Source: Streptomyces sp. 15-116A (GTDB lineage Bacteria; Actinomycetota; Actinomycetes; Streptomycetales; Streptomycetaceae). Taken from it: 47,340 nucleotides of DNA. The stretch's first letter is position 1; every line of letters starts with the position of its first letter. The notes below the pieces were generated by a model, which saw only the letters and a program-made list of their open reading frames with translations, did no database searches and was not told the DNA's origin. A program made the translations under genes and the position numbers. Positions 22,722 through 45,580 of this stretch are shown here, in pieces. The DNA lies in NCBI RefSeq assembly GCF_025290915.1, contig NZ_JAOCQE010000019.1:1-47340 (forward strand). Direction: 5' to 3'.

Positions 22722-23582
22722 TCAGTGGTGGGCGTGGTGTGTGTGGTGGCCGTGGTCGTGGCCCGCGTGCCCGGGTGCGGTGACCGAGTTGACCGACGTG
22801 ACCGCGGCGGGCTCGGTGGTCCGCACGGTGAACTCGGCGGTCCGGACGATGTCGGCGTGCTGGAAGTCCAGGTACAGCCGGTAGGTGCCGGCCGTGGGCG
22901 CTACGGCCATGAAGGAGATGCCGGGTCCCGGCGCGGTGGTGCCGTCACCGGGCTCGCCCTCCGGGTGGACGTGGAGGTAGCCCAGGTCGCCGACCCGCAG
23001 CGCGACCAGGTGCCCGTACGCGGCCAGGTAGGGCTGCAGATCGGTGACGGGGCGGCCGTTCCGGCTGACGGTGAGGGTCAGCTCGCTCGCCTCGCCGGGC
23101 ACGAGCGTGCCGTCGAGCGCGACGGTGTACTCGCCGATCCGCGCGATGCCGGTGGCCTCGGGGAGCGGCTGTGGGGCGTACGGCCCGGCGACCGCGGCGT
23201 CGATCCCGAGCGTCAGGGTGCCGTCGTGGCCGACCGGGTGGATGTCGGCGAAGAACCTCCAGTCCCCCGGTTCCAGGGTCAGTTCGGTGCTCCAGGTGCC
23301 CTTCTCGTCCCGCACGGGGTGGACGTGCTGGAATCCGGCCGTGTCGCGCCGTACGGCGATGAAGTGCAGTTCCTTCTCGTGCTCAGGCACGAACTCGGTC
23401 ACCGCCCGCCCGTCGGGGCCGATCACCCGGAAGCTGACCGGCTGCACGCCGGCGGCGAGGATCGTCGAGTCGAGCTCGAGGGTGTACCCGTTCTCGGAGA
23501 CCGACAGCCCACCGGGCTGGGCCCCGCCGTGGACACCGTGGACACCGTGGCTGGTGTGGCCGTGGCCAGCGTGATTCGTCAT
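22722..23582 (-). CDS. His-rich copper-binding protein, apparently cytosolic
   Basis: A 286-residue protein with His-rich ends (MTNHAGHGHTSHGVHGVHGG; GHDHGHHTHHAHH). The core of beta-type segments carries EKELHFIAVRRDTAGFQHVHPV and YLAAYGHLVALRVGDLGYLHVHPEGEPGDG, both likely metal-binding. It is a paralogue of the exported protein at 45650-46606 but lacks a signal peptide. GGGAGATGCC supports ATG at 23582 rather than the in-frame ATG at 23594. A CsoR-type palindrome at 23647 lies in its promoter, so copper induction is expected. Likely a copper or other metal buffer. Confidence 0.75.
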   Translation of the reverse strand: MTNHAGHGHTSHGVHGVHGGAQPGGLSVSENGYTLELDSTILAAGVQPVSFRVIGPDGRAVTEFVPEHEKELHFIAVRRDTAGFQHVHPVRDEKGTWSTELTLEPGDWRFFADIHPVGHDGTLTLGIDAAVAGPYAPQPLPEATGIARIGEYTVALDGTLVPGEASELTLTVSRNGRPVTDLQPYLAAYGHLVALRVGDLGYLHVHPEGEPGDGTTAPGPGISFMAVAPTAGTYRLYLDFQHADIVRTAEFTVRTTEPAAVTSVNSVTAPGHAGHDHGHHTHHAHH

Positions 23583-24207
23583 GGCATCTCCCATGGTTGT
23601 GATGCGCCTTCGGGCGTTGTCCGTTCAGGACGTTGATCGCAACCATATACCCCCCCGGGGTATTCCGGTACCTCGATGATTGAAATCTCGCGAGAGGGCT
23701 TCGAGGCGGATCTGCCAGATGCACCCACCCACCTGTCCCGGCGCCGTGACGCCAGCGTGCCGGCACGGCTGGCTCTGCGGTGACTCCCGCGAACGGCAGC
23801 AGAACGACAGGGCACCTGGTGACGCGCGGCAGAGAAACTGGCGCCGCCTACGCGAACGCGGTCCATGCAGGGGGCAGGCGGGCAGCACCCGGTGCTCGGA
23901 CGACTTCGACGCATCGAGGGATGGGCGAGAGGCCAGGCAGGAGAATGGTGGAAGAGGGCACTCACTGGAGAGGAAAGTCTCCGGAGAAGACGCCCGCGTC
24001 GGCATCGAAGGCCACTTCCCGGTCCGTCTGAGGGCTCGCCGGGTCCTTCTCATCGAGGGAAGGTCTGCCCGGCGGCAGCGCAGTCGGCAGCGCTATCGGC
24101 GGGACGACAGGCTCCTCTTTCCGCACCCAGCCGTGGCGGCGCAGCGGCCGGTGTCCCCTGTCTGCAACCTCAGGGAGATGCCGACTTACGAAGGAGGCGC
24201 GGTTGCT
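23583..24207. other. Long non-coding stretch between the His-rich gene and nuoN
   Basis: About 620 bases. Apart from the CsoR-type operator at 23647-23663, nothing recognisable was found. Open frames in it have no family match and poor coding bias. Confidence 0.5.
23647..23663. promoter_or_regulatory. CsoR-type operator
   Basis: ATACCCCCCCGGGGTAT, matching the copper-repressor sites near 40, 42 and 45 kb. It overlaps a TATATG -10-like hexamer for the leftward His-rich protein gene, 65 bases from its start codon. Confidence 0.8.
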
Positions 24208-25629
24208 TCAGGGCAGCAGCGGTCCTTCGGCGATGGTGAGTACGGCTTGTCCGGCGATGCCGAGTGTGAGGGAAAGGGTGCCCGCTAGGTGAGCGGTGGC
24301 AGCGGACCAGCGTCGTGGGCCGGTCTGCGTATCGGTGGGTGCCGTGCCGGTGGTGAGGAACAGGGGGCCGAGCCAGCGCAGGTAGTAGAAGAGCGAGGCG
24401 ACGGTGTTGGCGACGGCGAGGGCGGCGAGCCAGGTGTAGCCGCCGTCGATGGTCGCGCTGAAGATCTCCAGTTTGCCGAGGAAGACGCCGGTAGGCGGCG
24501 TGCCGACCAGGCCCAGGAGACAGACGACGAGCACGGCCGCGAGGTCGGGGCGGCGGCGGGCGAGGCCGCGGTAGTCGGTGAGGGCACGGGCCCGCGGAAG
24601 TGTCGCAACGACCGCGAAGGCGCCGAGGTTGGTGACGGCGTAGGCGGCCAGGTAGAGCAGCAGGCTCCGCTGAACGGTGCCGCTGCGGGTGGTGACGGCC
24701 AGGGCCATGAGCAGGTAGCCGACCTGACTGATCGTGGAGTAGGCGAGCAGGCGTTTGACGGAGGTCTGGAAGAACGCCGCGAGATTGCCCAGGGTCATGG
24801 TGACCGCGGCGAGAATCGCGAGAAGCAGCGGCCAGTTGACGTCGCTGTCGGCGAGTGCCTGTTGCAGCAGCCGGTAACCGGCGATCAGACCACCGACTTT
24901 GGGCAGGGTGGTGACGTACGCGGCGACGGGTGCCGGCGCCCCGTCGGTGACGTCGGGCACCCAGAAGTGGGCCGGTACGGCGCCGATCTTGAAGAGCAGG
25001 CCGGCGAGGACGCCGACGAGTCCGACGGCGACGAGTCCGTAGGGCGCGGAGGGCAGGGTCTTGGCGAGTTCGCTGTAGTGGGTGGCGTGGCCGGCGCCGT
25101 AGAGGAGCGCGGTGCCGGCGAGCATGGTGATGCCCAGCAGGGCGCCCATAAGGTAGTACTTCAGGGCGGCTTCGGTGCCGGGGGCGTCCTTCGCGAACCC
25201 GGCGAGTGCGTAGGCGGGGACGCTGGCCAGCAGGTAGGCGGCGAAGAGCATCAGCAGGTCGTTCGCGCCGGTGAGGGCGAGGGTGCCGGCGCCGGTCATC
25301 AGGAGCAGCACCCAGTACTCGGCCTCGCGTTTGTGGCGCCGTACGGTCTCCACCGACATGCAGATGATCAGCAGCAGAGCGACGAGCACGATGAGCCGCC
25401 CGGTGTCGGTGGCGGCGTCGACGGCGAACGCGGCGGCGAAGACGGTCTGTTCGCGGTCGGTGACCATGGTGACGGCGGTGGCCGTCAGGCCGGTCGCGCA
25501 GGCGGCCGCGGCGAGTACGGCCACGAGCCACTGACGGCGGCGGGGCAGCCAGGAGCCGGCCAGGAGGCCGATGACGGCGGCGCCGAGGAGGGCGATTTCG
25601 GGGATGAGGGCGGCCAGGTTCTCGTTCAC
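24208..25629 (-). CDS. nuoN: Complex I subunit N-like antiporter subunit
   Basis: A 473-residue protein with about 14 membrane helices. LLFKIGAVPAHFWVPDVTDGAP (the channel lysine and following helix) and AFFQTSVKRLLAYSTISQVGYLLMAL are typical of NuoN. The helix-5 glutamate of canonical NuoN (GVELLSLPLYAL) is missing: here the segment reads FAAYLLASVPAYALAGF. GTG at 25629 overlaps the nuoM stop. It is the last gene of the eight-gene leftward operon. Confidence 0.88.
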   Translation of the reverse strand: MNENLAALIPEIALLGAAVIGLLAGSWLPRRRQWLVAVLAAAACATGLTATAVTMVTDREQTVFAAAFAVDAATDTGRLIVLVALLLIICMSVETVRRHKREAEYWVLLLMTGAGTLALTGANDLLMLFAAYLLASVPAYALAGFAKDAPGTEAALKYYLMGALLGITMLAGTALLYGAGHATHYSELAKTLPSAPYGLVAVGLVGVLAGLLFKIGAVPAHFWVPDVTDGAPAPVAAYVTTLPKVGGLIAGYRLLQQALADSDVNWPLLLAILAAVTMTLGNLAAFFQTSVKRLLAYSTISQVGYLLMALAVTTRSGTVQRSLLLYLAAYAVTNLGAFAVVATLPRARALTDYRGLARRRPDLAAVLVVCLLGLVGTPPTGVFLGKLEIFSATIDGGYTWLAALAVANTVASLFYYLRWLGPLFLTTGTAPTDTQTGPRRWSAATAHLAGTLSLTLGIAGQAVLTIAEGPLLP

Positions 25630-27131
25630 CGTGCGACCAGGCCCGTCAGGGTGCGGCTGGCGGGTTCGATGACGTCCAGCAGCCAGCGCGGTGCGATGCC
25701 GATCACCAGGGCCACCGCGAGCAGCGGCACCGTGGACAGCGCCTCGGCCTTTCTCAAGTCGCGGACAATGCCGGTGGGGATGGTTTCGGGAAGGCGCGGG
25801 GTACCGAGGAACATGCGCCGCAGTGCGGTCAGGAACAGGGCGGCGGTGATGAGGATGCCGGTCACGGCGATGGCGGTGGCAATGGCGTGGGAGGCCAGGC
25901 TGCCGGTGAAGATCTGGAATTCGGCGATGAAGCCGGAAAAGCCTGGAATGCCGAGGCTGGCGAACGCGGCGACGGCGGTGACCGCCGCGAAGCGCGGGGC
26001 ATGCGCGGCCAGGCCGGAGTACGAGTCCATCGTGTATGTGCGTCCGCGGTCGTAGAGCACCCCGGCGAGCAGGAACAGAGCGGCGGTGATCAGTCCGTGG
26101 CTGACCATCTGGGTGACGGCTCCGGTCACCGCCAGGGTGCGCGCCTGGGCGTCGCTGCCCGCGAGTGTCCCGGCGGCACCGACGGCCAGGACGACGTAGC
26201 CCATGTGGTTGACCGACGTGTAGGCGATCATGCGTTTGAAGTCCGTCTGCGCCAACGCTACCAAGGCCCCGTAGACGACGGACACGGCGCCGACGATCAC
26301 GATGACGAGCGCGTAGTGGCGCCAGCTGCCGGGCAGCAGGGGCATGGCGATGCGGACGAACCCGTAGGTGCCCATCTTCAGCAGGACTCCGGCGAGGATC
26401 GCCGAGCCGGTGGCGGGGGCGTCGGTGTGGGCGGGCGGCAGCCAGGTGTGGAAGGGCACGGTCGGCGTTTTGACCGCGAGACCGACGCCGATGGCCAGCA
26501 GTACGAGGCCCGCGTACAGGCCGCGTCCGGCGAGCGGGTTCGCGCGGGTGAGGTCGACGATGTCGAAGGTGTGCGGGTCGGCCGCCAGGTAGAGGCCGAT
26601 GAAGCCGAGGAGGAGGGCGAGCGAGCCGACGAAGGTGTACAGGAAGAACTTCAGCGCCGCGGCCCGGGCTCGTTCGCCGTGTCCCCATCCCGCGATGACG
26701 AAGAACATGCCGACGATCGACAGGTCGAAGAAGACGAAGAACAGAATGAGGTCGAGGGCGACGAACAGACCGATGCTGACGGTCTGCAGGAACAGGAAGA
26801 GGCAGACGTAGGAGCGTACGCGCCGCGTCTCGCGCAGGGAGTGGACCGCGACGGCCAGGAACAGCAGGCAGGTCAGGGCGACCAGGGGCAGGGACAGTCC
26901 GTCGACGCCCACGTGGTAGCCGACTCCCGCGCTGGGGATCCAGCGCACCCGCTGCTCGTACTGCATCCCGCCGTCGGTGTCGTAGCCGGTCCACACGCCG
27001 ACGACCAGGGCCAGGTCCACGGCAGCGGTGGTGATCCACACCCATACGTACGCCCGCTCGGGGAGAGTGCGCGGCAGGAGCAGCAGTACCGCGCACACCA
27101 GCAGCGGCAGGAACGTGACGACGGTCAGCAC
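25626..27131 (-). CDS. nuoM: Complex I subunit M-like antiporter subunit
   Basis: A 501-residue protein with about 14 membrane helices. It shows VKTPTVPFHTWLPPAHTDAPATGSAILAGVLLK (helix 7-8 lysine region) and TDFKRMIAYTSVNHMGYVVLA. The helix-5 acidic residue is Asp (FFDLSIVGMFFV) rather than the usual Glu. GTG at 27131 starts 5 bases after the nuoL stop; no better start lies upstream. It should translocate protons within a membrane arm. Confidence 0.88.
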   Translation of the reverse strand: MLTVVTFLPLLVCAVLLLLPRTLPERAYVWVWITTAAVDLALVVGVWTGYDTDGGMQYEQRVRWIPSAGVGYHVGVDGLSLPLVALTCLLFLAVAVHSLRETRRVRSYVCLFLFLQTVSIGLFVALDLILFFVFFDLSIVGMFFVIAGWGHGERARAAALKFFLYTFVGSLALLLGFIGLYLAADPHTFDIVDLTRANPLAGRGLYAGLVLLAIGVGLAVKTPTVPFHTWLPPAHTDAPATGSAILAGVLLKMGTYGFVRIAMPLLPGSWRHYALVIVIVGAVSVVYGALVALAQTDFKRMIAYTSVNHMGYVVLAVGAAGTLAGSDAQARTLAVTGAVTQMVSHGLITAALFLLAGVLYDRGRTYTMDSYSGLAAHAPRFAAVTAVAAFASLGIPGFSGFIAEFQIFTGSLASHAIATAIAVTGILITAALFLTALRRMFLGTPRLPETIPTGIVRDLRKAEALSTVPLLAVALVIGIAPRWLLDVIEPASRTLTGLVAR

Positions 27132-27136
27132 AGGGG

Positions 27137-29014
27137 TTACCTCACCAACAGGATGATCAGGACCAGTACGGCGAAGCCCGCGGCGGCCTGGGCGTAGTAC
27201 TGATGCAGCAGTCCGGTCTGCGGGCGGCGCGCCCACCGGCCCAGGCTCCGCGCACCGGTCGCAACGGCACGGACTCCGGCGTCGATGCCGCCGTCGTCCA
27301 GACGGCGTGCGAGCCGGGCCGCCGCGAGGCCGCCCCGGGCGGTCTGCCGTACGGCGCCGTCGACGACCCGATCGTCGAAGTCGGCCAGCGTGCGCGCGAG
27401 GCCCAGCACCGGGCGGACCACGACGAGCCGCGCGGCCCGCTCCAGGTACAGCCACCCGTGAGTCCATCGGACGGCCGCGCGCGACAGCCCTGCGGATGCA
27501 GGGCGGGAAGCCCACCGCCAGGCCAGGCCGACGGCGGCGAGCGCCACGGCGGCGGACAGTCCGAGTTCCCACGGCTCGGGGGACGGTTCGCCCTGGGCGC
27601 CGACCAGCCCCTTCAGCCAGGACGCCGGTCCCGGCAAGGCCAGTACTCCCAGTACCGCCGCGGCGAAGGTGAGGGCGAGGAGCGGGGCGGGTGTCGAACC
27701 GGCGACGCGACGGGTGCCGCGCTCCTCGGTGTCGTATCCGAGTTCCGCGTCGGCAGGGAGGGGACGGGTGACGTACCAGACGGCTTTGACGCTGTACACG
27801 GCGGCGACGGCAGCCGCCGCGAGGCCCACCGCGTACAGCGCGGTCGACTCGGTGCGGGCGGCGGCGAGGACCTCGTCCTTGGCCGCCCACAGGGACAGGG
27901 GCGGCAACCCGGCCAGGGTGAGCGCGCCCACCGCGAAGGCCACGCCGACCAGTGGGTGGACGCGGGCCGCCCCACGCAGTGCCGGCAGTTGCTTGGTGCC
28001 CAGCGCGGTCAGCCAGGCGCCCGCGGCGAGGAACAGAGCCGACTTGGTGGCGGCATGGGAGACGAGCTGGGTGGTGCCCGCGGCGACGCCGCCGCTGCCC
28101 GCGGCCAGCACCATGAAGCCGATCTGGGCGGAGGTGGAGGCCGCGAGGAGCTGCTTGAGGTCGGTCTGGGCCACCGCGACCAGCCCCAGGACGAGGGCGG
28201 TGGCCGCGCCGGTCCAGGCGACCAGCGGCCCGGCCCAGGCCGTGGCGTCCAGCAGCGAGACGAGTCGCAGCAGCAGGTAAGCGCCCGCGGCGACCATGGT
28301 CGCCGAGTGCAGCAGCGCCGAGACCGGGCTCGGACCCTGCATGGCGCGCGACAGCCAGAACGAGAACGGCAGTGCCGCAGACTTGCCGAGGGCGGCCACC
28401 ACCACGCCCGCGGTGATCACGTGCAGCCAGGGCGCGTCCGCGTCCGGGAGAGCGTCCAGGCGCAGCGAGCCGATGCCGCCGGCCATCGCGGCGCCGGCTG
28501 CCAGGTACAGGCCGAGGTCGGCGGCGCGGGTGGTGAGGAACGCGACGTCGGCGGCCTCCGCCCGCTCCGGCTGCCGCCACCAGTAGCCGATCAGTGCCCA
28601 GCTGGTGGCCCCCATCACTTCCCAGGCCATCAGCAGCAGCGGCAGGGTGGTCGCCGTGACGGTGACGAGCATGGCGCCGGCGAAGAGCAGCATGAGCCCG
28701 AAGAAGCGGCCCCGGTTCTCGTGGGCGGCGAACTCGCCCACGGCGAAGGCCAGCACGGCGGTGGTGACCGCGGCGACGGTGACCACCATCACCGCGGACA
28801 GGCCGTCCACCGCCAGTCCCGCCTCCATCCCGGCGAACAGCGGCGCGCTCGCTTTCGGCCGGGTCAGCGCGGCGGCGACCGCCGCACCGAGCGTGGCGAC
28901 AGCGGCCGCCACACCGGCGGCGGGGACCAGGCCGCCTCGGCGGGGTCCCGTGAGGGCGAGGACCGCTCCCCCGCCCAGGGGGAGAGCGATGAGCAGCCAG
29001 AGCACCGCGCTCAT
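27137..29014 (-). CDS. nuoL: Complex I subunit L-like antiporter subunit
   Basis: A 625-residue protein. Proton-path residues are kept: Glu in MAWEVMGATSWALIGYWW, Lys in ALGKSAALPFSFWLSRAMQGPSPVSALLHSATM, and Lys in HAATKSALFLAAGAWL. The C-terminus has the extra helices of NuoL, with a possible lateral helix in the region RTHGWLYLERAARLVVVRP and a final membrane segment (AAGFAVLVLIILLVR). ATG at 29014 overlaps the nuoK stop (ATGA). Confidence 0.9.
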   Translation of the reverse strand: MSAVLWLLIALPLGGGAVLALTGPRRGGLVPAAGVAAAVATLGAAVAAALTRPKASAPLFAGMEAGLAVDGLSAVMVVTVAAVTTAVLAFAVGEFAAHENRGRFFGLMLLFAGAMLVTVTATTLPLLLMAWEVMGATSWALIGYWWRQPERAEAADVAFLTTRAADLGLYLAAGAAMAGGIGSLRLDALPDADAPWLHVITAGVVVAALGKSAALPFSFWLSRAMQGPSPVSALLHSATMVAAGAYLLLRLVSLLDATAWAGPLVAWTGAATALVLGLVAVAQTDLKQLLAASTSAQIGFMVLAAGSGGVAAGTTQLVSHAATKSALFLAAGAWLTALGTKQLPALRGAARVHPLVGVAFAVGALTLAGLPPLSLWAAKDEVLAAARTESTALYAVGLAAAAVAAVYSVKAVWYVTRPLPADAELGYDTEERGTRRVAGSTPAPLLALTFAAAVLGVLALPGPASWLKGLVGAQGEPSPEPWELGLSAAVALAAVGLAWRWASRPASAGLSRAAVRWTHGWLYLERAARLVVVRPVLGLARTLADFDDRVVDGAVRQTARGGLAAARLARRLDDGGIDAGVRAVATGARSLGRWARRPQTGLLHQYYAQAAAGFAVLVLIILLVR

Positions 29015-29316
29015 CCCTTCAGGTCCTCGGCCATGTCGGTCATGTCGACCTGGCGGGCGCGGTAGATGGCGGTGGTGACGGCGAAGCCCATGGCCATCTC
29101 CACGGCCATCGCCACCACGGCCGCCACGATCACGACCTGGCCGCTGCCGGCGGCGGGGGCGAGGAAGTACCAGAAGTCGGCGGCGGCGACGATGACGCCG
29201 CCGATCATCAGCTCGATCCCCATCATGATCATGACGATGGACTGCTGGGAGAGGGCACCGAACAGGCCGGTGCAGAAGAGCCCGGCCGCGAGGACCAGCA
29301 GGAGTTCGAACGTCAT
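29011..29316 (-). CDS. nuoK: Complex I subunit K-like
   Basis: A 101-residue protein with three membrane helices. The conserved acidic residues of NuoK are present in SIVMIMMGIELMIGGVIVAA and VVAMAVEMAMGFAVTTAIY. ATG at 29316 overlaps the nuoJ stop (ATGA). Normal length for the family. Confidence 0.92.
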   Translation of the reverse strand: MTFELLLVLAAGLFCTGLFGALSQQSIVMIMMGIELMIGGVIVAAADFWYFLAPAAGSGQVVIVAAVVAMAVEMAMGFAVTTAIYRARQVDMTDMAEDLKG

Positions 29317-29882
29317 CGGCCCACTCCCCCGCCGGCCGAGTCGTTCGCAGGCCGCTGATCGAGGTCGTCTCCGAAACGGTCGTACCGGCCGCGGCGGGTG
29401 GCGAGGACGGTGGCACCCACCATGGTGGCCAGGAGTACGAATCCGAGCGTGACCATGGTCAGCATCTGGTCGCCCATCAACGACATCCCGACCTGGAACG
29501 TGGTGTCCTCGAGCCGCGCTCCCGTGCGGTCGGGCCACGGCACCAGGAAGATCCCCACGACCAGGGCGGCGAACACGAGGCCGCTGATGACCAGTGAGCC
29601 GCGCTTGTTGTGCAGCATCGACATCGGCATCAGACCGGCCGGATTCATCATGTACGCGATCATGAAAACCGCCATGATCACCATCTCCATGACCATCATC
29701 AGCACGATCACCACGCCGAGATACGGCAGCCGCAGCACGGTCACCACCCCGCCCACGCACACCAGGGAGCCCAGGAGGGCGAACGTGACCCGAGCCATGG
29801 AGTTCAAGGTGAAGACCAGGACGCCGCCGACCAGGGCGAGCACGCCCAGTACCCACAGCAGCACCGTGCTCGTCGTGCCCAT
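29313..29882 (-). CDS. nuoJ: Complex I subunit J-like
   Basis: A 189-residue membrane protein with about five helices; LPYLGVVIVLMMVMEMVIMAVFMIAYMMNP resembles the NuoJ helix-3 pi-bulge region. AGGAAAGGAACGC precedes the ATG. Only 14 bases separate it from nuoH, so no nuoI gene is present between them. The C-terminal 25 residues are charged and cytosolic. Confidence 0.85.
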   Translation of the reverse strand: MGTTSTVLLWVLGVLALVGGVLVFTLNSMARVTFALLGSLVCVGGVVTVLRLPYLGVVIVLMMVMEMVIMAVFMIAYMMNPAGLMPMSMLHNKRGSLVISGLVFAALVVGIFLVPWPDRTGARLEDTTFQVGMSLMGDQMLTMVTLGFVLLATMVGATVLATRRGRYDRFGDDLDQRPANDSAGGGVGR

Positions 29883-29896
29883 GACGCGTTCCTTTC

Positions 29897-30826
29897 CTAA
29901 CGGGTGAGACTGACCAGGGCCGGCACCAGGGCCTGGAGGACGGACAGCGGCAGGAGCACCACCCAGGCCAGTTCGACGTACCGGTCGGCGCGGAGCATGG
30001 GCAGCCGCCGCAGCGTCCACACCAGCACCGCCAGTACCAGCAGGGTCTTGACCAACGACCAGGCCCAGGCGGGCAGCCCCGGCCCGGCGCCGCCGCCCAG
30101 GAACAGCGGCACCGCCATCGCGGCCCCGGCCGCCAGCCACAGCCACCGCCCTGCCTGCAGCAGCAGCCGGTCCACCCCGCTCGTCTCCCCCAGTACGCCG
30201 TCGGCGACGTCCCGCCCGAGCGGATACGCGAACGGTCCCAGGAAGCTGAAGGCCAGAACTCCTGCCAGGTAGAGGACGAAGGCGAACGGCATCCACACCG
30301 CGTACCACAAGCCGTGCTGGGCGCCGACGATGTCGGTCACCCGCAGGGACTCGGCGCCCGTGGCGGCCGAGATCAGCGCGAACATCAGCGGCAGCTCGTA
30401 AGCCAGGCCCAAGGCGAGGAAGCGGTAGCCGCCGACCAGGGAGAAGGCGGCGTTCGGACCCCAGCCGGCCAGCCACAGCCCGGCCCAGGTCAGCACCTCC
30501 ATGGCGTTGAACCACACCACCCCGACCGACAGATCGGCGACGACGCGGTTGCCGAACGGGATGACCAGCGTGGCCAGTACCGCGGCCACCGGGACGGTGA
30601 TCACACCCGCCCGCCACAGCAACCGATCCGGTGCGGGCAACCGCCGCGGCTGCGCCAGCAGCGCCCGCGGCACGGCGAGAAGCGGCCGCACCGCAGTATG
30701 GGCGGTGATCCGACGGCCCGCGTTCCGGGCGTCCAGTGCCGCGTCGGCCGCCACTGCCAGCACCGCGAAGACGAGCAGCATCGCCGGGGCGGCCGGCAGC
30801 GCCCACCACGTCCCCGCCTCAGCCAC
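29897..30826 (-). CDS. nuoH: Complex I subunit H-like
   Basis: A 309-residue membrane protein with about eight helices. FSLVGGYRFLALGLAYELPLMFALI matches the NuoH core that forms the quinone chamber. The cytosolic loop that is normally acid-rich (DLPEAESEL) is here LGPFAYPLGRDVADGVLGE, so the usual glutamates are lost. GTG at 30826 overlaps the upstream gene by 8 bases. The contact with a redox arm may therefore differ from canonical complex I. Confidence 0.88.
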   Translation of the reverse strand: MAEAGTWWALPAAPAMLLVFAVLAVAADAALDARNAGRRITAHTAVRPLLAVPRALLAQPRRLPAPDRLLWRAGVITVPVAAVLATLVIPFGNRVVADLSVGVVWFNAMEVLTWAGLWLAGWGPNAAFSLVGGYRFLALGLAYELPLMFALISAATGAESLRVTDIVGAQHGLWYAVWMPFAFVLYLAGVLAFSFLGPFAYPLGRDVADGVLGETSGVDRLLLQAGRWLWLAAGAAMAVPLFLGGGAGPGLPAWAWSLVKTLLVLAVLVWTLRRLPMLRADRYVELAWVVLLPLSVLQALVPALVSLTR

Positions 30827-32207
30827 GGGCCACCTCCAGCCGACACGCGGTCAGTTCGTCCGGGTCCGGGTCGAGGCTGGCGACGACGAGACGGGCCGCG
30901 CCCAGTTCGGCCCCCACCAACAGGCGGGGAAGCAGCTTCACCAGGGCGGCCGACGGCGGGCGTTCGGCGTCCCACCGACCGCGCGGGCTCTCCTGCGCCA
31001 CCGGATTGAGCGGGGCGGTCGCGTCCAGCTGCCGTACGGCGTCCATGACCTCGGTGAGCCATTGGCGGTAGCGGGCCGGTACATCCCCGCCGGCCGCCCG
31101 TACGGCGGGACCGGTGACACTTGCGGCTCGTGCGTCGGCCGCGCTCAGCAGACCGACGCCTCGCGTCAGCCAGTACAGGGTGCGTGACCGCCCGACCCGC
31201 CGGGTGAAGCGCTCCGCCCGGGGCAGGATCGCCGAGGCGGGCGCCTCCTCCAGCAGGTCGTCGCGCAGCCGCCGGGCCGTCACCGCCTCGGCGGGCCAGC
31301 CGGCCACCGACAGCAGTCGGCCCAGGCTGTCCAGGTGCGCCGCGGCCCGCCGCCGGGCCGCCTCCCCCACGCACACCGGCTCGCCCGTGGTGGCTCGCAG
31401 CCACGGCCGGCTCCAGAAGGGGTCGGCTGGTCCGCCGGCGGGCGGATCGTCGAGGTCGGCACGTTGGACGACGTCGCCCTGAAGCACCACGCGAAGGGTC
31501 AGGCCGGCGGGCCAGTCGGCCAGAAAGGGCCCCAACGGCACGTGCAGGCGGTCCAGCGTCAGACCGTCGCGGTCCTCCCCCGGTTCGGCCATGGCCAGTC
31601 CGCCCGGCATCTCCATGCCACCATGCCCATGACCGTGACCGGTGTGTCCGTGACCGTCGTGACCATGACGGGCGTGGTCGTCATCGCCGTCCCCGTGACC
31701 GGTGCCGCCATGACCGGCGTGCTCACCGCCGTGGCCACTGGCCTCCGGGCCATCGTCGTGATGCCGCGCGTGTGCGCCGCCTTCGAAGCCGCGATCGTCT
31801 TTCGCGTGATCGGCTCGCACCGATTCCGCGTCGTGCTTTCCGGGCTCTCCGTGCCCGTGCTCTCCCGCGGTGCGGTCGGCCCCGCCCCGGTCGCCCTCTG
31901 GTGTGGCCAACCGAGCGCGGCCGGCTTCGAGGACCGATGCCACCTCGTCGGCCGTCACGGCTCGCACGCGCACGCGCGGCCGCGGCATGTCCTGCCACAA
32001 CCGTTCCAGCGCCGGACCCAGCCGCGAGCAGTCAGGACCCGCCACCAGCATCAAGTCGGCTCCGGCCGGGGTCGACGCCGACGGCCAGTCCCGGGACCGC
32101 AGTTCCTTCTCGGCGGCCAGCCGCACCGGCGTACCGCCCGGCGTGGTCACCAGCAGGACGCGTGGCCGGGCGGCCGCTGCGCGGGTCAGGGCGGCGGTCA
32201 GGCCCAC
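30819..32207 (-). CDS. NuoB/NuoD-like hybrid with His-rich insert, no Fe-S ligands
   Basis: A 462-residue soluble protein. Residues 14-85 (RPRVLLVTTPGG ... ADLMLVAGPDCSRLGPALERLWQDMPRPRVRVRA) resemble the NuoB fold but have a single Cys and none of the four cluster cysteines. Residues 117-195 are His/Gly/Asp-rich with 19 histidines. The C-terminus (RTLYWLTRGVGLLSAADARAASVTGPAVRAAGGDVPAR) resembles the end of NuoD. It may be a cofactor-free scaffold for the membrane arm that also binds metal. GTG at 32207 is inside the nuoA end; the exact start is uncertain. Confidence 0.65.
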   Translation of the reverse strand: MGLTAALTRAAAARPRVLLVTTPGGTPVRLAAEKELRSRDWPSASTPAGADLMLVAGPDCSRLGPALERLWQDMPRPRVRVRAVTADEVASVLEAGRARLATPEGDRGGADRTAGEHGHGEPGKHDAESVRADHAKDDRGFEGGAHARHHDDGPEASGHGGEHAGHGGTGHGDGDDDHARHGHDGHGHTGHGHGHGGMEMPGGLAMAEPGEDRDGLTLDRLHVPLGPFLADWPAGLTLRVVLQGDVVQRADLDDPPAGGPADPFWSRPWLRATTGEPVCVGEAARRRAAAHLDSLGRLLSVAGWPAEAVTARRLRDDLLEEAPASAILPRAERFTRRVGRSRTLYWLTRGVGLLSAADARAASVTGPAVRAAGGDVPARYRQWLTEVMDAVRQLDATAPLNPVAQESPRGRWDAERPPSAALVKLLPRLLVGAELGAARLVVASLDPDPDELTACRLEVARG

Positions 32208-32548
32208 CGCAGTGCTCCTTCCCGCCATGCGTAGATCACACCCGTGAGCAGGACGGCGAGGAAGACGAACATCTCGATCACCGCACTGGGTCCCATCGCG
32301 GAGATCACCAGTGTCCACGGGTACATGAAGACCATCTCCATGTCGAAGGCGAGGAAGAGCATCGTCACCGTGTACCAGCGCATGTGGAAACGGCTGACCG
32401 CGTGTTCCGTCGGCTCCAGTCCCGATCCGAACGGCTGCGCGGGCAGCGGACCGGACGAGAGCCGAAGCGCCCAGGCCGCTCCGTATGCTCCGGCCACCGC
32501 CAGCAGGGCCAGCCCCAGCAAGGACAGCGCGGCGGTGAAGCCACTCAC
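32198..32548 (-). CDS. nuoA: Complex I subunit A-like
   Basis: A 116-residue protein with three membrane helices. EPTEHAVSRFHMRWYTVTMLFLAFDMEMVFMYPW is the diagnostic NuoA segment, with the acidic residues of helix 2. GTG at 32548 gives the normal family length, but the ribosome binding site is weak. It is the first gene of the leftward operon A-(B/D)-H-J-K-L-M-N. Confidence 0.88.
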   Translation of the reverse strand: MSGFTAALSLLGLALLAVAGAYGAAWALRLSSGPLPAQPFGSGLEPTEHAVSRFHMRWYTVTMLFLAFDMEMVFMYPWTLVISAMGPSAVIEMFVFLAVLLTGVIYAWREGALRWA

Positions 32549-32684
32549 CGGATGCCACCACCCAGGAGGTCCCTCCCACGCCCCGCGACTTGTACGTCGA
32601 GGCGCCCGTCGGCGGGCGCTGTCCCGCCCGCACTCCGCGTCGAACCCATCTGTCGCTCCGTTCCCGCTGTGCCGGAAGCGTTGG

Positions 32685-32703
32685 GTACCCCCCGGAGGCA
32701 TAC
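32685..32703. promoter_or_regulatory. Weak CsoR-like site upstream of the complex I-like operon
   Basis: GTACCCCCCGGAGGCATAC keeps the left half (TACCCCCC) of the copper operator and part of the right half. It sits 140 bases upstream of nuoA in the only sizeable gap before the operon. It is less symmetrical than the eight clear sites and may not be functional. Confidence 0.35.
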
Positions 32704-32862
32704 GCAGTCCCGGAGGGCACGAGTCGTACGGCGGCGTGGGCCCCGAAGCCGCAGTCGGCACGCTCCACCGCCCGGCGTCGAGTGCTACGGCCACGGTGCC
32801 GGACGTCCACACACCGCGCGAGGCGGCCGGGTCCATCGGTGCCCCGAGGGGGTGTCCGTGCG

Positions 32863-34116
32863 TCAGGCGGGGGCGAGTGGCGCCTCTGCCCGCGCGATCA
32901 GGCGCTCGCTGCGGGCCAGGGCGGCGACGGATGCCGCGCAGGCCAGTCCGGTCGCGGCCAGGGAGCACCAGGTCAGCCAGAGGGCGTCCTCGTGTTCGGC
33001 GAAGTCCCACAGGGCTCCGGTGGTGAGGTTGCCGAGGGTGATGCCGAGGCCCGAGACGGTGTTGTACAGCCCGTAATGGGTCGCCACGAGCCGGTTGCCG
33101 GAGAGCGTGACGACGGTGTCCATTTCGAAGGGGTAGACGACGGCACCGCCGACAGCCAGGAGGACCACGGCCAGGACCAGGGCGGTCAGTACGGCGGCCG
33201 GGGCCTCAGGTGGTGCCAGGGCGAGCGGCACGAAGGCCGCCCCCATGGCGGTCAGTCCGCGGACGAGGGCCTGAGCGGGCGTCCAGCGTCGCTTCGCCCA
33301 GCCGGTAAGCCGCAATTGCCCCACCACGGCGACGGCAGCCGAGACGACGAAGAGTCCGCTGGTCACCCAGGTCCCCTTGTCCCCGAGGACGTCGGCTGCG
33401 GCCAGGGGCAGTGCCAGGTAGACCTGAAATGTGAGGACGTACGAGCCGGTCATCGCGAGGGCGAAGAGCAGGAAGGGCCGGTTGGCCACGACCGTGCGCC
33501 ACTGCGCCAGTACATTGCCCGGCGTCGCGCCGGGTGCCTCGCCACGGCGGGCGGGCAGGGCACGCCATTGCAGGACGGTCAGCAGGGTGAAGATCGCGGC
33601 AGCGACTGTGCAGACGAGCCGGAAGTCGGCAGCCAGCAGGGCCAGGCCCACCAGCGGGCCGAGGACCATTCCGGCCTGGTAGTAGACGTTGAAGGTGGCG
33701 AAGGCGTCCACGCGTCGTTCGCCGGCTTCGGCGGCCAGGTAGGCGCGTACGGCAGGGTTGAACAAGGCGCCCGCGAAGCCGGTGGCCGCTGACGCGGCAA
33801 TCAGGGCCGGGAGGTTGTCGACCCAGCCGAGCAGGCCGAAGCCGACGGTGCGGAGCAGGCAGCCAGCCATGATGGGGGCCTTGTAGCCGTAGCGGTCGGC
33901 GATGGTGCCTCCGATGAGGAACATGCCCTGCTGGGAGAAGTTGCGTACGCCCAGGACGAGTCCGACGGCCCATGCCGCCAGCCCGAGCCCGCCGGCCAGG
34001 TGGGCTGCCAGATAGGGCATGAGCATGTAGAAGGCGAGGTTGATGGCGAACTGGTTGGCCATCAACAGTCGGACCGGGGCTGGGAACGAGTGGGTCTGCT
34101 GCCACAGGTGCTTCAT
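32863..34116 (-). CDS. MFS transporter coupled to cysteine-synthase-like gene
   Basis: A 417-residue transporter with 12 predicted helices. Motif A region reads [24 protein letters not shown]. The ATG overlaps the stop of the PLP enzyme gene (ATGA), so the two are translated together. This suggests export of the enzyme product or a derivative. The gene ends 315 bases before the nuoA start. Confidence 0.85.
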
Positions 34117-35264
34117 CGTGCGACTCCTACGGTCTCGTCTCCCGCTCCCTGGGCGTCGGCGGTGGCCAGGGGGTCGATGACGTGGGTGCAGCGCGTCCAG
34201 CGGGTCACCACCCGCTCGTCCGGCCGGGCGATCTCCTCCGGATCGTCGGCGGGCGGGGCGTCGAGCAGTCCGTGCTCTTGGCAGTAGGCGTCGTCGAAGA
34301 CCGTGCCGATGTAGCGCTGCGGGCCATCAGGGAAGATGGCGACGATCCGGTTCGCGGCGGGCAGGGTGCGAGCCGCCCATCGGGCGACGAGGGCGACCGC
34401 GCCGACACTCCATCCCCCGGTTGTGTAGTGATCACGGGCCAGCCTGCGTGCCGACCACACCGCTTCCGGTGCGGCGACCCAGTGGACCTCGTCGAACAGG
34501 TGGTAGGCGACGTTGCGTGGGTGGATGCTGCTGCCCAGGCCCCGCATCAGACGGGGTGCGGCGGGCTGGCCGAAGATGGTCGAGCCGCAGGTGTCCACAC
34601 CGATGACCCGCAGGTGGGGGAAGAGCCCACGCAGGACGGAGGCGATCCCGGCGGAGTGGCCGCCCGTGCCGACGGACACGACGAGGGTGTCGATCCGGCC
34701 GAGCTGGTCGACGAGTTCGTGGGCGAGCGGAGCGTAGGCGGTCACGTTATCCGGGTTGTTGTACTGGTCGGGGCACCATGCGCCGGGATGGGCGGTGAGC
34801 AGCTCTTGCACCCGGTGCAGGCGGGCGCGCTGCCAGCCTCCACAGGCGTGCGGGGTGTCGACGCGGTCCACGGTGGCCCCGTACGCCGTGAGGAGTCCTG
34901 TCATCAGGGGTTCCATGCCGGGGTCGGTGACGACGGTGACCGGGTGGCCGTAGGTCGCGCCGGCGAGGGCAAGGCCGAGGCCGAGCGTGCCGGAGGAGGA
35001 CTCGACGATGCGTGCGCCGGGCAGGAGCTGTCCCCGCTCGCGGGCTGCACGGACCATGTGCAGGGCGGTGCGGTCCTTGATGCCGCCCGGGTTGTGGCCC
35101 TCGATCTTGGCCCAGAAGCCGCGCCCCGGGAGAGTGAAGGGGGCTCCGATCCGGAGGACAGGTGTGTTGCCGACCAGTCCGGCGGGAGTGTGCGTCAGTC
35201 GCTCGGTTTCGGGGAGAGGCTTCGCGGGCGCGGCCAGGACAGACGTGCAGGTCAGGTGATTCAT
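34113..35264 (-). CDS. PLP-dependent cysteine synthase-family enzyme
   Basis: A 383-residue fold-type II PLP enzyme. Lys63 in [14 protein letters not shown] should bind PLP, and [15 protein letters not shown] is the phosphate loop. The substrate loop reads [12 protein letters not shown], where CysK has TSGNTG, so the usual Asn is Thr; this is nearer to SbnA-type beta-replacement enzymes. The family uses O-acetyl- or O-phospho-serine with sulfide or another nucleophile; the true substrates are unknown. ATG at 35264 is chosen from the homology start. A C-terminal extension of about 50 residues follows the catalytic core. Confidence 0.85.
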
Positions 35265-35376
35265 GGCGTGGTTCTCCGGCAGCCGGTGTCTGAACAGCGA
35301 CGGGCCGCGTGTAGAGGGGGCGGAGGTGATCGGTTGCTGAGCCGCGGCCGGATACGGGGCCGCGGTGCTTGGTCGA

Positions 35377-35814
35377 TCAGGTCCGCCACACGCCGAGACG
35401 GGACCGCGTATGTCCGGTGGACGAGCAACCCGGGTCGAGAGCCGATGCCTGCGCGCCGGGCCGTGTGGGCGACGGCTGGGTGCCCTGCTCGACGCGGAGA
35501 ACATGGAGGGCCGGGCCGTCAGCAAGGGGGATGTCGCGGGAGGGCTGCACCGTGGGCTCGTCCAGATCACAGCAGTGCGACTGGTGGTCATGCGGCGGCG
35601 CGCTCTGCAGCGACGCCATCCCGTCGTCGGCCGGTCCCGGCGTATGTCCACAGAAGGCTCCCGCGCTGTGCGCGGCGTCTGCCCGTGCCGTCCCGGCCGT
35701 CACCGGTCCGTGAGCGCAGGCCAGCAGGTGCACCAGCACGGCGAGCAGCACGACCAGCGGCGCCGCGGTGCGCGCCGGGGGCCGAGTGCTCGGTAGTACT
35801 GACCAGGCAGACAT
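35377..35814 (-). CDS. Small secreted His/Cys-containing protein
   Basis: A 145-residue protein with an N-terminal hydrophobic segment ([22 protein letters not shown], near residues 17-38) that looks like a signal or anchor. It is followed by [10 protein letters not shown] and [17 protein letters not shown], possible metal ligands. It is divergent from the DUF6153 gene and lies in the copper island. No family name is secure. Confidence 0.55.
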
Positions 35815-36095
35815 CAGGACGGACTGTAATGAATCGCATGCGCAAGGTCATTGTGGGCGGATCTACCGTTCGACGGTTCTGCTGGCGTGCGCCAGGGCCG
35901 GACACGGCTGGGACGTCCGCGAATGCGACGTGCAGCGGCCTTGACTGCCCGTAAATGCCGGTTCCGCTGACCACCGGATCGGGTGAACGTCAGCACCAAC
36001 TGGTCGAGAGACGGGCACGGAGGCGTACGAGTGAGGACGGCCGCCGGTCGCGCCGTCACATCTGCGCTTTCGCGAAGGGCCCGTACGATGGGTGC
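35815..36095. other. Divergent intergenic region
   Basis: It separates the leftward secreted-protein gene from the DUF6153 gene. A short frame ending at 35954 is probably a remnant or chance. No CsoR-type palindrome was found in it. Confidence 0.4.
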
Positions 36096-36497
36096 GTGAC
36101 CAGGAGTACTCGATCAAGCAGCCGCCCTGCCGGGCGGCTGTTCGTGCTGCTGGTGATGGCGGTACTGGCCGGAGTGCTGGGCATGCACGGCCTCGCCCCC
36201 GGTGCGACAGTGGCGGTGCAGGCGGCTACCGGCCACGAGATGGTGATGGTCCCTGCGGACGGCGTGCCTCACGCGGGCGGGGGATGCACGCACACGGATG
36301 GCGGTTCGAGTCATCTCGATCATGCCGATGGGACGTGTGCGGCGGCCGGCATCGGTTCGGCGTACACGCCGCCCGCGCTGACCGGCACCCTGCTGAACGC
36401 GCCTGCGACCCCCGCGCCCGCTGCCGCGTTCCCAGGGGCATCGCATGGTGGCCGAGCACCGCCCGACCTGTCGGAACTGCAGCTCCTGCGCATATAG
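36096..36497 (+). CDS. DUF6153-family protein
   Basis: A 133-residue protein, N-terminal membrane segment (RLFVLLVMAVLAGVLGMHGLAPG, near residues 14-36), then a Gly/His/Cys-containing middle (GGGCTHTDGGSSHLDHADGTC) and the RAPPDLSELQLLRI end typical of DUF6153. GTG at 36096 is chosen over the longer open frame because the family begins about there. Function unknown; it occurs together with DUF305 genes in Streptomyces, as here. Confidence 0.75.
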   Translation: MTRSTRSSSRPAGRLFVLLVMAVLAGVLGMHGLAPGATVAVQAATGHEMVMVPADGVPHAGGGCTHTDGGSSHLDHADGTCAAAGIGSAYTPPALTGTLLNAPATPAPAAAFPGASHGGRAPPDLSELQLLRI

Positions 36498-36618
36498 AGC
36501 GGCCCGCTCGGCTCCCGTGCGCCCGGCCCTGCCGGTGACGGGTGCCGTGCTTCCGCACGCTCTACATCCGTTCCCACCGCGTGCCGCGAAACGGCGCGCG
36601 TCAAGGAGTTGCACCACC

Positions 36619-37254
36619 ATGATCCGCAAGCGTTCCCTCATGCGCCGTACTGCCGCCGTAGCCGCCGCAGGCGCGGCAGCACTGGTCCTGGCCGCCTGTG
36701 GCGGCAACGGTGACGATGACGGCTCGGCTGGACACGGCGGCCACGCCGCCACCGCTTCCTCGTCCGCCCCGGCGTCGGCGTCGCAGGGGCAGCACAACGC
36801 TGCCGATGTGGCCTTCGCGAAGGGGATGATCCCCCACCACCGCCAGGCCGTCGAGATGGCCGACCTGGCGCCCGACCGTGCGCAGTCGGCCGAGGTGAAA
36901 AAGCTCGCCGCCGACATCAAGAAGGCCCAGGACCCGGAGATCAAGACGCTCTCCGGGTGGCTGACGTCGTGGGGCGAGGACGTGCCCGCCGAGGGTGCCA
37001 TGGACCACTCCATGCACGACATGGGCGGCATGATGACGGCCGAGGAGATGACCGAGCTCGAGAACGCCTCGGGCAAGGCGTTCGACACCGCCTTCATGGA
37101 AATGATGATCAAGCACCACGAAGGCGCGGTCGACATGGCGAAGACCGAGCAGGCCGACGGCGCCTACGGACCGGCCAAGAAGATGGCCGGAGAGATCATC
37201 GACTCGCAGAGCGCGGAGATCGAGCAGATGAACCAACTGCTCGGCAAGGGCTGA
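36619..37254 (+). CDS. DUF305 lipoprotein
   Basis: A 211-residue lipoprotein. The lipobox LVLAAC places the acylated Cys at 27, followed by a Ser/Ala-rich linker with GHGGHAA. Two DUF305 repeats are marked by KGMIPHHRQAVEMADLA and EMMIKHHEGAVDMAKTE; the paired His suggest copper binding outside the membrane. AAGGAG (36603-36608) is 10 bases before ATG. It is followed by a strong terminator-like stem and then the BNR-type lipoprotein gene. Confidence 0.88.
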   Translation: MIRKRSLMRRTAAVAAAGAAALVLAACGGNGDDDGSAGHGGHAATASSSAPASASQGQHNAADVAFAKGMIPHHRQAVEMADLAPDRAQSAEVKKLAADIKKAQDPEIKTLSGWLTSWGEDVPAEGAMDHSMHDMGGMMTAEEMTELENASGKAFDTAFMEMMIKHHEGAVDMAKTEQADGAYGPAKKMAGEIIDSQSAEIEQMNQLLGKG

Positions 37255-38692: not shown

Positions 38693-40132
38693 TCACACCT
38701 CTGCCTTCTCACCCAGCGCGCTGGGCTGCTCCGCACTGGCGGCGGCCACGTCCTTCTCGGTGCGCATCACGAGGAGCGTGATGAGACCGCCGACGGCGGC
38801 GATGGCGGCGGCCGCGGTGAACGCCGCGCTGAAGCCGTCGGTCAGGGCAGGCAGGTCACCGAGTCGGCCTGCGCCCTGGGATGTGGCCAGGGCGGTGAGA
38901 GCGGCCAGGCCGAGGGCCGAACCGATCTGGTAGGTGGTGTTGACGATGCCGGAGGCCAGGCCCGCCTGCTCGGCCGGGGCGCCGGACATGGCCGCCATCA
39001 TCGCCGGGATGTACGCCAGCGACATGCCGAGGGCGGCCACCAGCGAGGCGGGCAGGACGTCGACGACGAAGGAGCCGCTCGGCTCGACGGCCGACAGCCA
39101 CAGCAGGCCGGCCGCGAGGACGAGCAGGCCGCCGCCGATCAGCGGCTTGGCACCGAGGCGGGCCAGCAGCCGCGCGGTGATGGCGGTCATGAAGACCATG
39201 AGGAGCACGGTCATCGGCAGCAGCGCCGCGCCGGAGGCGAAAGCACCGTAGCCGAGGACCTGCTGCAGGTAGAGGTTGAGGAAGTACCACATGGGAATCC
39301 ACGCGGCGCCCAGCAGTGCCATGGCCAGGTTGGCCGAGCCGAGCCTCGGCACGCGCCAGATACCCAGCGGCATCAGAGGTCGGCGCATCGTCTTCTGCAG
39401 TACGAAGAAGAGCGCCAGCAGAGCGGCGGCGCCGACGAGTTCGAGCACGGTCTGGGTGGCTCCCCAGCCGATCTCCGGTGCGCGGACCACGGCGAAGACT
39501 GCGAGGGCGAGGCCGGCCGTGACGGCGGCGGCACCGAGCACGTCGATCGCTCCGCGGCGGGGGGCCACGGCAGGGAGCAGCTTGGTCGCGGCCAGCGTGG
39601 CGGCGCCGATGGGGATGTAGATGATGAACACCCAGGGCCAGCTGAGCCATTCGGTGAAGACCCCGCCGAGGAAGACGCCCGCGGTGCCACCGGCCGGGGC
39701 CGCCGCACCGTAGAGGGCCATGGCCTTGCCGAGCTCCTTCGGGTCGTGGGCGAACAGCGTCATCAGCAGGGTCATCGCGGCGGGGGCGATCAGCGCGCCG
39801 CCGACGCCCTGGACGGCTCGGCCGGCGACTTCCACCCACGCGGTCTGAGCGGCTGCGGCGACGATCGATCCGCCGATGAGCACGGTCCAGCCGACGGTGA
39901 ACACCCGGCGTGCGCCGAGCAGGTCGGACAGGCGGCCGCCGAGGAGCAGGAGACCGCCGAAGGCGATGACGTAGGCGTTGAACACCCATTGCAGGTCGCC
40001 CTGAGAGAAGCCGAGGTCCTTCTGCATCTCGGGGAGTGCGACCCCGATGATCGAGGTGTCCATGATCACCATGAACTGGGCGGTGGCGAGCACGGCGAGC
40101 GCCCACCAGCGCTTGGGACTGACAGTTGGCAT
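38693..40132 (-). CDS. MFS exporter, DHA2-like, copper-operator controlled
   Basis: A 479-residue transporter with 14 predicted helices (LATAQFMVIMDTSIIGVALPEMQ; GGRLSDLLGARRVFTVGW as motif A). GGGGAAGG lies just before ATG at 40132. Two CsoR-type palindromes at 40162 and 40196 straddle a TATGTT -10-like hexamer, so copper induction is expected. It resembles the exporter at 40968-42416 in type and promoter design. The substrate is unknown: a metal complex, chelator or drug are all possible. Confidence 0.88.
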   Translation of the reverse strand: MPTVSPKRWWALAVLATAQFMVIMDTSIIGVALPEMQKDLGFSQGDLQWVFNAYVIAFGGLLLLGGRLSDLLGARRVFTVGWTVLIGGSIVAAAAQTAWVEVAGRAVQGVGGALIAPAAMTLLMTLFAHDPKELGKAMALYGAAAPAGGTAGVFLGGVFTEWLSWPWVFIIYIPIGAATLAATKLLPAVAPRRGAIDVLGAAAVTAGLALAVFAVVRAPEIGWGATQTVLELVGAAALLALFFVLQKTMRRPLMPLGIWRVPRLGSANLAMALLGAAWIPMWYFLNLYLQQVLGYGAFASGAALLPMTVLLMVFMTAITARLLARLGAKPLIGGGLLVLAAGLLWLSAVEPSGSFVVDVLPASLVAALGMSLAYIPAMMAAMSGAPAEQAGLASGIVNTTYQIGSALGLAALTALATSQGAGRLGDLPALTDGFSAAFTAAAAIAAVGGLITLLVMRTEKDVAAASAEQPSALGEKAEV

Positions 40133-40161: not shown

Positions 40162-40177
40162 ATACCCCCTGGGGGTA
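40162..40177. promoter_or_regulatory. CsoR-type operator
   Basis: ATACCCCCTGGGGGTA, 30 bases upstream of the MFS start codon at 40132. Confidence 0.85.
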
Positions 40178-40195
40178 CCTGGCAGGGAACATAAC

Positions 40196-40212
40196 ATACC
40201 CCCTAGGGGTAT
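40196..40212. promoter_or_regulatory. CsoR-type operator
   Basis: Perfect palindrome ATACCCCCTAGGGGTAT. With the site at 40162 it brackets the presumed -10 element TATGTT of the MFS gene at 38693-40132. Confidence 0.88.
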
Positions 40213-42416: not shown

Positions 42417-42500
42417 GTCGTCTCCTTCATTCGGTGCCCGCAAGTCTTCGGCTCCGGGTCAGCTTCACGAGGCCGAAACCACCGTCGACCTCGACCTCAG

Positions 42501-42517
42501 ATACCCCCCTCGGGTAT
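42501..42517. promoter_or_regulatory. CsoR-type operator
   Basis: ATACCCCCCTCGGGTAT, upstream of the MFS gene starting at 42416. Confidence 0.8.
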
Positions 42518-45105: not shown

Positions 45106-45154
45106 CACTACTCCTTGGGCTGATCAAGGCAAAGGGAAAGTCAGGGAGGGAAGA

Positions 45155-45194: not shown

Positions 45195-45473
45195 TCAGGC
45201 CGCGCGGCCGGTGAGCTCGTAGCCGGCGTCGTCGATGACCTTGGCCAGCAGCGCGTCGTCGGGTTCGTCCGCCGTGGTGACGGTGACCTGGCCGGATTCG
45301 AGGTCGACGTCGACCGCCTGTACACCGTCCAGCGCGCCGATCTCCTTGGTGAGCGTGGCCTTGCAGTGCCCGCAGGTCATCCCGGACACGTTGTAGACGG
45401 TGGTGGTGCCCGCAGTAGCCGTCGCCGTGGTGGTGCCGGTGGAGCAGCTTCCGTCAGGAGTGCAGCAGGACAT
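45195..45473 (-). CDS. copZ: Copper chaperone CopZ
   Basis: A 92-residue HMA-domain chaperone. GMTCGHCKATLTKEIGAL has the metal-binding Cys34 and Cys37. The N-terminal MSCCTPDGSCSTG adds three more cysteines and a flexible Thr/Ala linker, unlike a minimal CopZ. AGGAGGAACC precedes the ATG. It delivers Cu(I) to CopA and should be controlled by the operators at 45495 and 45534. Confidence 0.92.
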   Translation of the reverse strand: MSCCTPDGSCSTGTTTATATAGTTTVYNVSGMTCGHCKATLTKEIGALDGVQAVDVDLESGQVTVTTADEPDDALLAKVIDDAGYELTGRAA

Positions 45474-45511: not shown

Positions 45512-45533
45512 GCTGTCGCACACCCCACTAGAT

Positions 45534-45550: not shown

Positions 45551-45580
45551 CCTTGGCAAACGTCGACGGGCTACTTACCA

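Follow-up and report, generated by a model that had tools for sequence, protein, structure and literature searches.

A redox-stripped complex I-type operon in a Streptomyces copper island as a candidate proton-driven Cu(I) transporter

What does a complex I-type operon do if it encodes none of the subunits that would take up electrons? The question is raised by a 47,340-nucleotide stretch of Streptomyces sp. 15-116A (NCBI RefSeq assembly GCF_025290915.1, contig NZ_JAOCQE010000019.1, positions 1 to 47,340; hereafter the window), in which eight minus-strand genes (32548-24208) overlap their neighbours or nearly do so (at most 14 bases apart). These encode homologues of NuoA (32198-32548; PF00507, E 1.3e-27), NuoH (29897-30826; PF00146, E 2.2e-39), a methionine-rich NuoJ (29313-29882; PF00499, E 2.5e-12), NuoK (29011-29316; PF00420, E 2.2e-10), NuoL (27137-29014; NF005141, E 3.6e-95), NuoM (25626-27140; TIGR01972, E 1.4e-145, above cut-off) and NuoN (24208-25629; TIGR01770, E 2.7e-98), together with a 462-residue protein between A and H (30819-32207), here called BD. 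The complex likely moves copper rather than electrons, because such clusters often lie among copper-resistance genes and because the methionines of the small subunits are strictly conserved. We regard a copper link of the operon itself as probable, and are evenly divided on the fuller reading, that of a complex I-type transporter for Cu(I) or a comparable soft metal which may be powered by the proton-motive force.

An earlier note on this DNA had listed A, H, J, K, L, M and N without NuoC, E, F, G or I, and had concluded from the 14 bases between the nuoH stop and the nuoJ start that NuoI is truly absent. Family matches, coordinates and tblastn agree with both statements. Using the canonical subunits of the host as tblastn queries, we found no NuoB, C, D, E, F, G or I in the window, with the single exception of a NuoB-like stretch of 33 residues inside the BD gene. 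The survey of similar clusters that the note had proposed for NuoI gave the same picture, as the host queries detected no NuoB, C, E, F, G or I near the operon at 79 named loci (flanks of up to 10 kb) or in 27 sampled windows, the latter drawn from 26 Actinomycetota genomes picked by a BD profile alone. The gene order A-BD-H-J-K-L-M-N was seen at 77/79 named loci and in those sampled windows that were uncut by contig ends, and since the same eight genes recur in the same order, the operon is not a chance array. The two exceptions are one locus cut by a contig end (L073) and one without M and N (L075); the latter, from Streptomyces, has A, BD, H, J, K and L, with M and N not found in the following 7 kb, which suggests a partial or decaying copy. 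The host genome (7.26 Mb in 559 contigs) has genes for canonical NuoB, C, D, E, F, G, H and I outside the operon, with three matches for NuoH (one of them the operon copy), two for NuoB, and NuoD on two other contigs. The L084 genome has, on contig C95, another partial nuo cluster (H, I, J, K, L, M), whose J and K are normal and methionine-poor.

Where the note went astray was in treating NuoB and NuoD as simply missing. The 30819-32207 protein, judged by its sequence, is a degenerate NuoB-NuoD fusion, and the cluster is therefore A-BD-H-J-K-L-M-N. Canonical NuoB carries the four cysteine ligands of cluster N2, and canonical NuoD holds the quinone head with a histidine (in HPSTHG) and a tyrosine (in an MDY motif). 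No cysteine of BD is invariant or nearly invariant across 59 homologues, which bears out the note's statement that this protein has no iron-sulfur ligands. At the position of HPSTHG, the BD family of the window has GPxLxDWPxGL, and its consensus is without the MDY motif; a distant member has GPLFPGLPGGL at the former position and a proline aligned with the MDY tyrosine. The only invariant histidine in the 59-homologue set, H222, stands ahead of the GPQHPSTHG position rather than within it, and its invariance does not hold in a wider set. With the cysteines and the NuoD motif histidines gone, the operon could not accept electrons as it stands, as had been claimed.

Other segments of BD point to metal. 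The linker of the window's BD (about residues 108-210) is rich in histidine and methionine and ends in GMEMPGG, while Halomonas has GMMGG...PMAMNM instead. A heavy-metal-binding domain (HMBD; PF19335, E 8.3e-15 in the single distant BD scanned) is part of BD in another actinobacterial lineage, and the corresponding motif CPMHP...CGMxL was found in 7/24 BD proteins of the phylum sample and in none from the 79 named loci. In Roseivivax and Acuticoccus the His-rich stretch is instead the tail of NuoJ (31/35 and 16/19 histidines, respectively). HMBD or His/Met metal-binding add-ons also occur in CusB and in ATPases, and their apparent attachment to the same complex in different lineages would be hard to explain by salt. 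As a side observation, the BD gene annotated on a Pseudonocardia plasmid (L099, 14995-15633) is 212 aa long and misses the NuoB half, which may reflect either misannotation or a genuinely shorter protein.

The small subunits A, J and K show the second metal signature. We aligned the named loci with the window (80 rows for A and K, and 79 for J, in which 1/79 named NuoJ was dropped by a length filter) and found 24 columns with at least 94% methionine, of which A has 4, J has 14 and K has 6. NuoA M70, M72, M75 and M93 are methionine in 100% of the rows, and in NuoK methionine adjoins both conserved glutamates, E35 and E73. In NuoJ, methionines cluster in the predicted third helix (53-79), which contains M62, M63, E66, M67, M70, M74, M78 and M79. 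The conserved methionines lie beside acidic residues of A, J and K, which in complex I connect the quinone site with the pumps. Eleven of the 14 NuoJ columns are methionine in 26/26 distant NuoJ of the phylum sample, and also in eight plasmid NuoJ (six plasmid operons and two alphaproteobacterial ones). At the same columns, the canonical subunits of the host have methionine in 0/14 (both NuoJ), 1/4 (NuoA) and 2/6 (each of two NuoK). Mean methionine content is 9.9% in NuoJ, 9.0% in NuoK and 5.9% in NuoA, as compared with 1.7-2.5% in H, L, M and N of the same operons. A structure model of NuoJ was middling (pLDDT 69.7, pTM 0.54), and helix limits alone were used from it. On a helical wheel, the one-sidedness of helix 3 is weak, reaching P 0.014 for M62-M78 with E66 and losing significance once M79 is included (P 0.09). 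The best relatives of the operon NuoJ among solved structures are NuoJ of NDH-1 and complex I.

The third line of evidence is the company that the operon keeps. In the Actinomycetota sample, a core copper family was present in 16/27 operon windows and 0/33 control windows (Fisher 8.7e-8), where the control windows came from seven of the 26 genomes at spaced rather than random positions, averaged 20 kb against 16.5 kb for the operon windows, and were scored with a copper protein panel derived from the window and from plasmid operons. Restricting the comparison to the seven control-source genomes, 7/8 operon windows had a core copper family. At least two such families were present in 13/27 operon windows, and a copper gene lay within 1 kb of the operon in 10/27; for the named loci, 24/79 had a core copper family and 8/79 a copper gene within 1 kb. 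In L097, L102 and L081, CsoR-type sites, defined as TAC-N9-GTA with G-tracts according to the operator description in PMC3902906, precede nuoA by 39, 74 and 76 bases, respectively. Within 300-400 bases of nuoA, they occur at 3/79 named loci, 2/26 sampled loci and 4/8 plasmids, with a modest excess at the named loci (P 0.018) and the sampled loci (P 0.023).

Plasmids carry the operon as well. Query P0002 matched 15 plasmid records, and 8 of the 12 examined had annotated copper or heavy-metal genes, counted as a P1B ATPase, a CsoR-type regulator, a multicopper oxidase or CopC/D; since H5/H7 and H14/H15 are near copies, these eight amount to about six independent cases. On the Halomonas plasmid the copper genes lie about 5-12 kb upstream of the operon, and H1 has a broken operon with BlaI/CopY-type and M56 genes only. 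The Halomonas subunit as query matched five records, one being the same Halomonas plasmid, and three others were examined. In two of these, from Roseivivax and Acuticoccus, the operon lies near cueR and genes for a P-type ATPase and a multicopper oxidase, with no CueR-type dyad before nuoA in either alphaproteobacterial plasmid by the pattern that we take to define it; the annotation of the Vreelandella record consists almost wholly of hypothetical proteins. The plasmid records used leave out H4, H6, H8 and H19.

More broadly, BD was found in 22/150 genomes of the genus (E <= 1e-9) and 27/396 of the phylum (E <= 2.1e-9), the host's own included in both. A looser phylum tally (236/396 at E <= 0.001) was discarded because many of its rows were short matches to residues 42-84, taken as canonical NuoB. 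Two BD genes (L112 and L116) were detected by the BD profile and missed by tblastn with the window BD protein. At E <= 0.001, the window and Halomonas BD proteins had 882 and 719 protein matches, with 120 of each listed; among them is a BD homologue of Streptomyces lividans 1326 (SLI_1033), 63% identical over 94% of the query. Carriers occur in Actinomycetota, Alphaproteobacteria and Gammaproteobacteria. Among named records, the nearest is Streptomyces sp. CCM_MD2014, in which the best tblastn segments of all eight proteins are identical.

The window itself contains a copper island around the operon. Towards its 3' end are a copA-like heavy-metal P-type ATPase with an HMA domain (42847-45108, minus strand) and a copZ-like chaperone with GMTCGHC (45195-45473, minus; PF00403, E 1.2e-17), followed by three CsoR-type operators (45496-45596, starting at 45496, 45535 and 45582) between copZA and a divergent gene at 45650-46606. 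Two operators (40163-40211, starting at 40163 and 40197) lie upstream of a major facilitator superfamily (MFS) gene at 38693-40132, and one (42502-42516) upstream of another at 40968-42443, an arrangement that suggests that both MFS exporters are under copper control. Just 3' of nuoN, a His-rich DUF4198-like protein is encoded (22722-23594, minus; weak PF10670 match, below cut-off), with the operator TACCCCCCCGGGGTA (23648-23662) 54 bases upstream of its gene. This protein and the one encoded at 45650-46606, likewise His-rich and DUF4198-like, are 52% identical over 279 residues, have CsoR-type operators before each, and are possibly copper-binding. In total, CsoR-type operators number 7 in the 47-kb window, whereas control windows totalling 660 kb gave 1. 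Directly upstream of nuoA are an MFS transporter (32863-34116, minus; a neighbour at 9/79 loci) and a pyridoxal phosphate enzyme of the cysteine-synthase superfamily (34113-35651, minus, with the true start inside this open reading frame; PF00291, E 4.3e-55; a neighbour at 10/79), and this pair recurs before nuoA in Streptomyces and Actinomadura loci. Further out is a DUF305 protein (36445-37254, plus; PF03713, E 1.5e-51), a recurrent neighbour at 12/79 loci. Rfam gave no match at 24000-36500. Positions 1870-8750 encode SPDY (DUF317) proteins, an IS110-type transposase and, at 4111-5901, a TraG/D-type conjugation coupling protein, so that the copper island seems to lie in or beside a mobile element. 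This island, together with the NuoB-NuoD ancestry, the His/Met-rich linker and the methionine pattern, had been overlooked in the earlier note.

We scored conservation in H, L, M and N over the named loci and six plasmid operons (rows dropped: 1/78 for L, and 2/78 each for M and N), at the Nuo residues that we take to matter for pumping. Conserved positions include E132, K211, H236, H320, K324 and K379 in NuoL; D139 (glutamate in the canonical M of the host), K224, K255 and E407 in NuoM; and the lysines K214, K244 and K386 in NuoN. In NuoH, where part of the canonical acidic loop is changed, E144, D206 and E214 are retained, and D239 and E242 of that loop are mostly lost. The proton side of the complex has largely been retained.

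Taken as a mechanism, BD would serve as a cytoplasmic scaffold whose linker gathers copper and passes it to a path lined by methionine and glutamate through H-A-J-K, and proton entry via L, M and N would drive copper export. Somewhat more tentatively than the transport function, at a level of belief a little short of even, we propose that such operons may represent a new class of metal pump: a redox-stripped complex I with a methionine-relined acidic channel, in which Cu(I) would replace quinone chemistry and be exported by means of protons entering via NuoL, M and N. On this view, copper-resistance islands and plasmids would have carried it through Actinomycetota and Proteobacteria, and it would have been mistaken for a salt-adaptation operon.

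Several observations weigh against proton-driven copper transport. No core copper family was found in 11/27 sampled windows (several of them cut by contig ends) or at 55/79 named loci, and plasmid records H2, H3 and H13 have no annotated copper or heavy-metal genes. CsoR-type sites close to nuoA are few, the window has none directly upstream of it, and those at greater distance may belong to neighbouring genes. NuoL departs from several canonical charged residues (e.g., D283 to tryptophan and K306 to glutamine), and in NuoN leucine (L133) replaces the canonical glutamate in 99% of sequences. The methionines could serve another purpose, and His-rich stretches also bind zinc and nickel. Finally, many of the gammaproteobacterial carriers listed are halophiles, in keeping with the older salt reading.

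Of the alternatives, the one that survives best, though we think it unlikely, retains copper as a ligand rather than a cargo: binding of copper to the methionine and histidine sites would gate leakage of protons or cations through L, M and N, making the complex a metal-sensing valve or a stress regulator acting on the proton-motive force. It would share the same metal signatures and copper neighbourhood, the lost NuoN glutamate may mean altered coupling, and a path for the metal cannot be shown by sequence alone. However, sensing alone would hardly call for three antiporter-type subunits that retain most of their proton-path residues.

Rather less probable is Na+ antiport as a marine or osmotic adaptation, as which the partial nuo operon has been published (PMC3314556, PMC6002675, PMC4018334, PMC6676996). 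The operon subunits do match Mrp-type subunit models, and the many halophiles among the carriers listed speak for it too. We lowered this reading because Na+ antiport leaves the metal signatures (methionine columns, HMBD and histidine additions) unexplained, as it does the copper neighbours. The basis of those papers, in their passages on the operon, is gene presence or absence and whole-strain growth, and PMC6676996 itself mentions that a strain from copper-rich mine fluid has the operon, which it attributes to osmotic stress. The cluster described in PMC13011467 is the canonical 14-gene nuo cluster, and the passages on fusions and partial clusters in a complex I survey (PMC12361115) add nothing on the operon. 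No link between copper and the partial nuo operon appeared in titles or abstracts among the matches listed by full-text searches aimed at both, with most subscription journals outside coverage.

We consider it improbable that the association is only hitch-hiking, with an accessory operon and copper genes sharing mobile islands and having no joint function. The coupling protein and transposase in the window would fit this, as would operons on plasmids without nearby copper genes. Against it stand the close spacing of copper genes in the sampled windows and their occurrence in three bacterial classes, the CsoR-type sites right before nuoA in L097, L102 and L081, and the fusion of a metal-binding domain to the BD subunit itself. 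Lastly, the earlier note's suggestion of an oxidoreductase with an unknown donor or with redox subunits borrowed from the host complex I, for which the canonical genes elsewhere in the genome would provide, was rejected as extremely improbable, as the electron-receiving subunit is stripped of its conserved cysteines, its HPSTHG motif and (in the distant member) the MDY tyrosine, and no redox subunit gene was found near the 79 named and 27 sampled operons. By contrast, the note's idea of a cation/proton antiporter comes close to our own, as a proton-coupled cation transporter is the best reading.

If proton-driven copper transport is correct, the consequences reach beyond this locus. It has long been asked how quinone chemistry in complex I is coupled to proton channels that lie far away, and a natural complex that kept the pumps and swapped the redox driver for apparent metal binding would make this coupling directly testable. 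It would also give bacterial copper handling a further energy source beside ATP-driven and RND pumps, and a "marine adaptation" gene set would be reinterpreted as copper genes.

Compared with known systems, the operon resembles complex I/NDH-1 in having homologues of A, H, J, K, L, M and N in order and a BD derived from NuoB and NuoD. It differs in lacking C, E, F, G and I, the cysteine ligands and the quinone-site motif, in its methionine-rich NuoJ third helix and A/K acidic sites, and in its copper neighbourhood. The second partial NDH-1 operon, or nuoAHJKLMN marine adaptation genes, has the same gene set and order as described in PMC3314556 and PMC6676996, the latter giving nuoA, a hypothetical protein and then nuoHJKLMN; as far as the described synteny goes, ours belongs to the same family as this Salinispora-type operon. 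In those descriptions, however, the hypothetical protein is left unnamed and the operon is interpreted as serving osmotic or marine adaptation. Like Mrp antiporters, the operon combines antiporter-type subunits without a redox module; unlike them, it has H, A and the BD scaffold and no room for MrpE/F/G. Its NuoL fits NuoL models better than MrpA models, and neither MrpE, MrpF, MrpG nor an MrpA-type large subunit was the best match of any of the eight genes or was found among the neighbours scanned. The large subunit of Ech/Hyc/Mbh energy-converting hydrogenases carries NiFe CxxC pairs, whereas BD has no conserved cysteine. The DAB inorganic-carbon transporter requires a DabA partner (DUF2309), for which the operon genes and neighbours scanned gave no Pfam match. 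The CopA (P1B ATPase) and Cus exporters of Cu(I) share with the operon their HMBD or His/Met add-ons, and CopA genes lie in the same islands; they differ in that the proposed drive of the operon would be protons passing through complex I-type subunits, rather than ATP or an RND pump.

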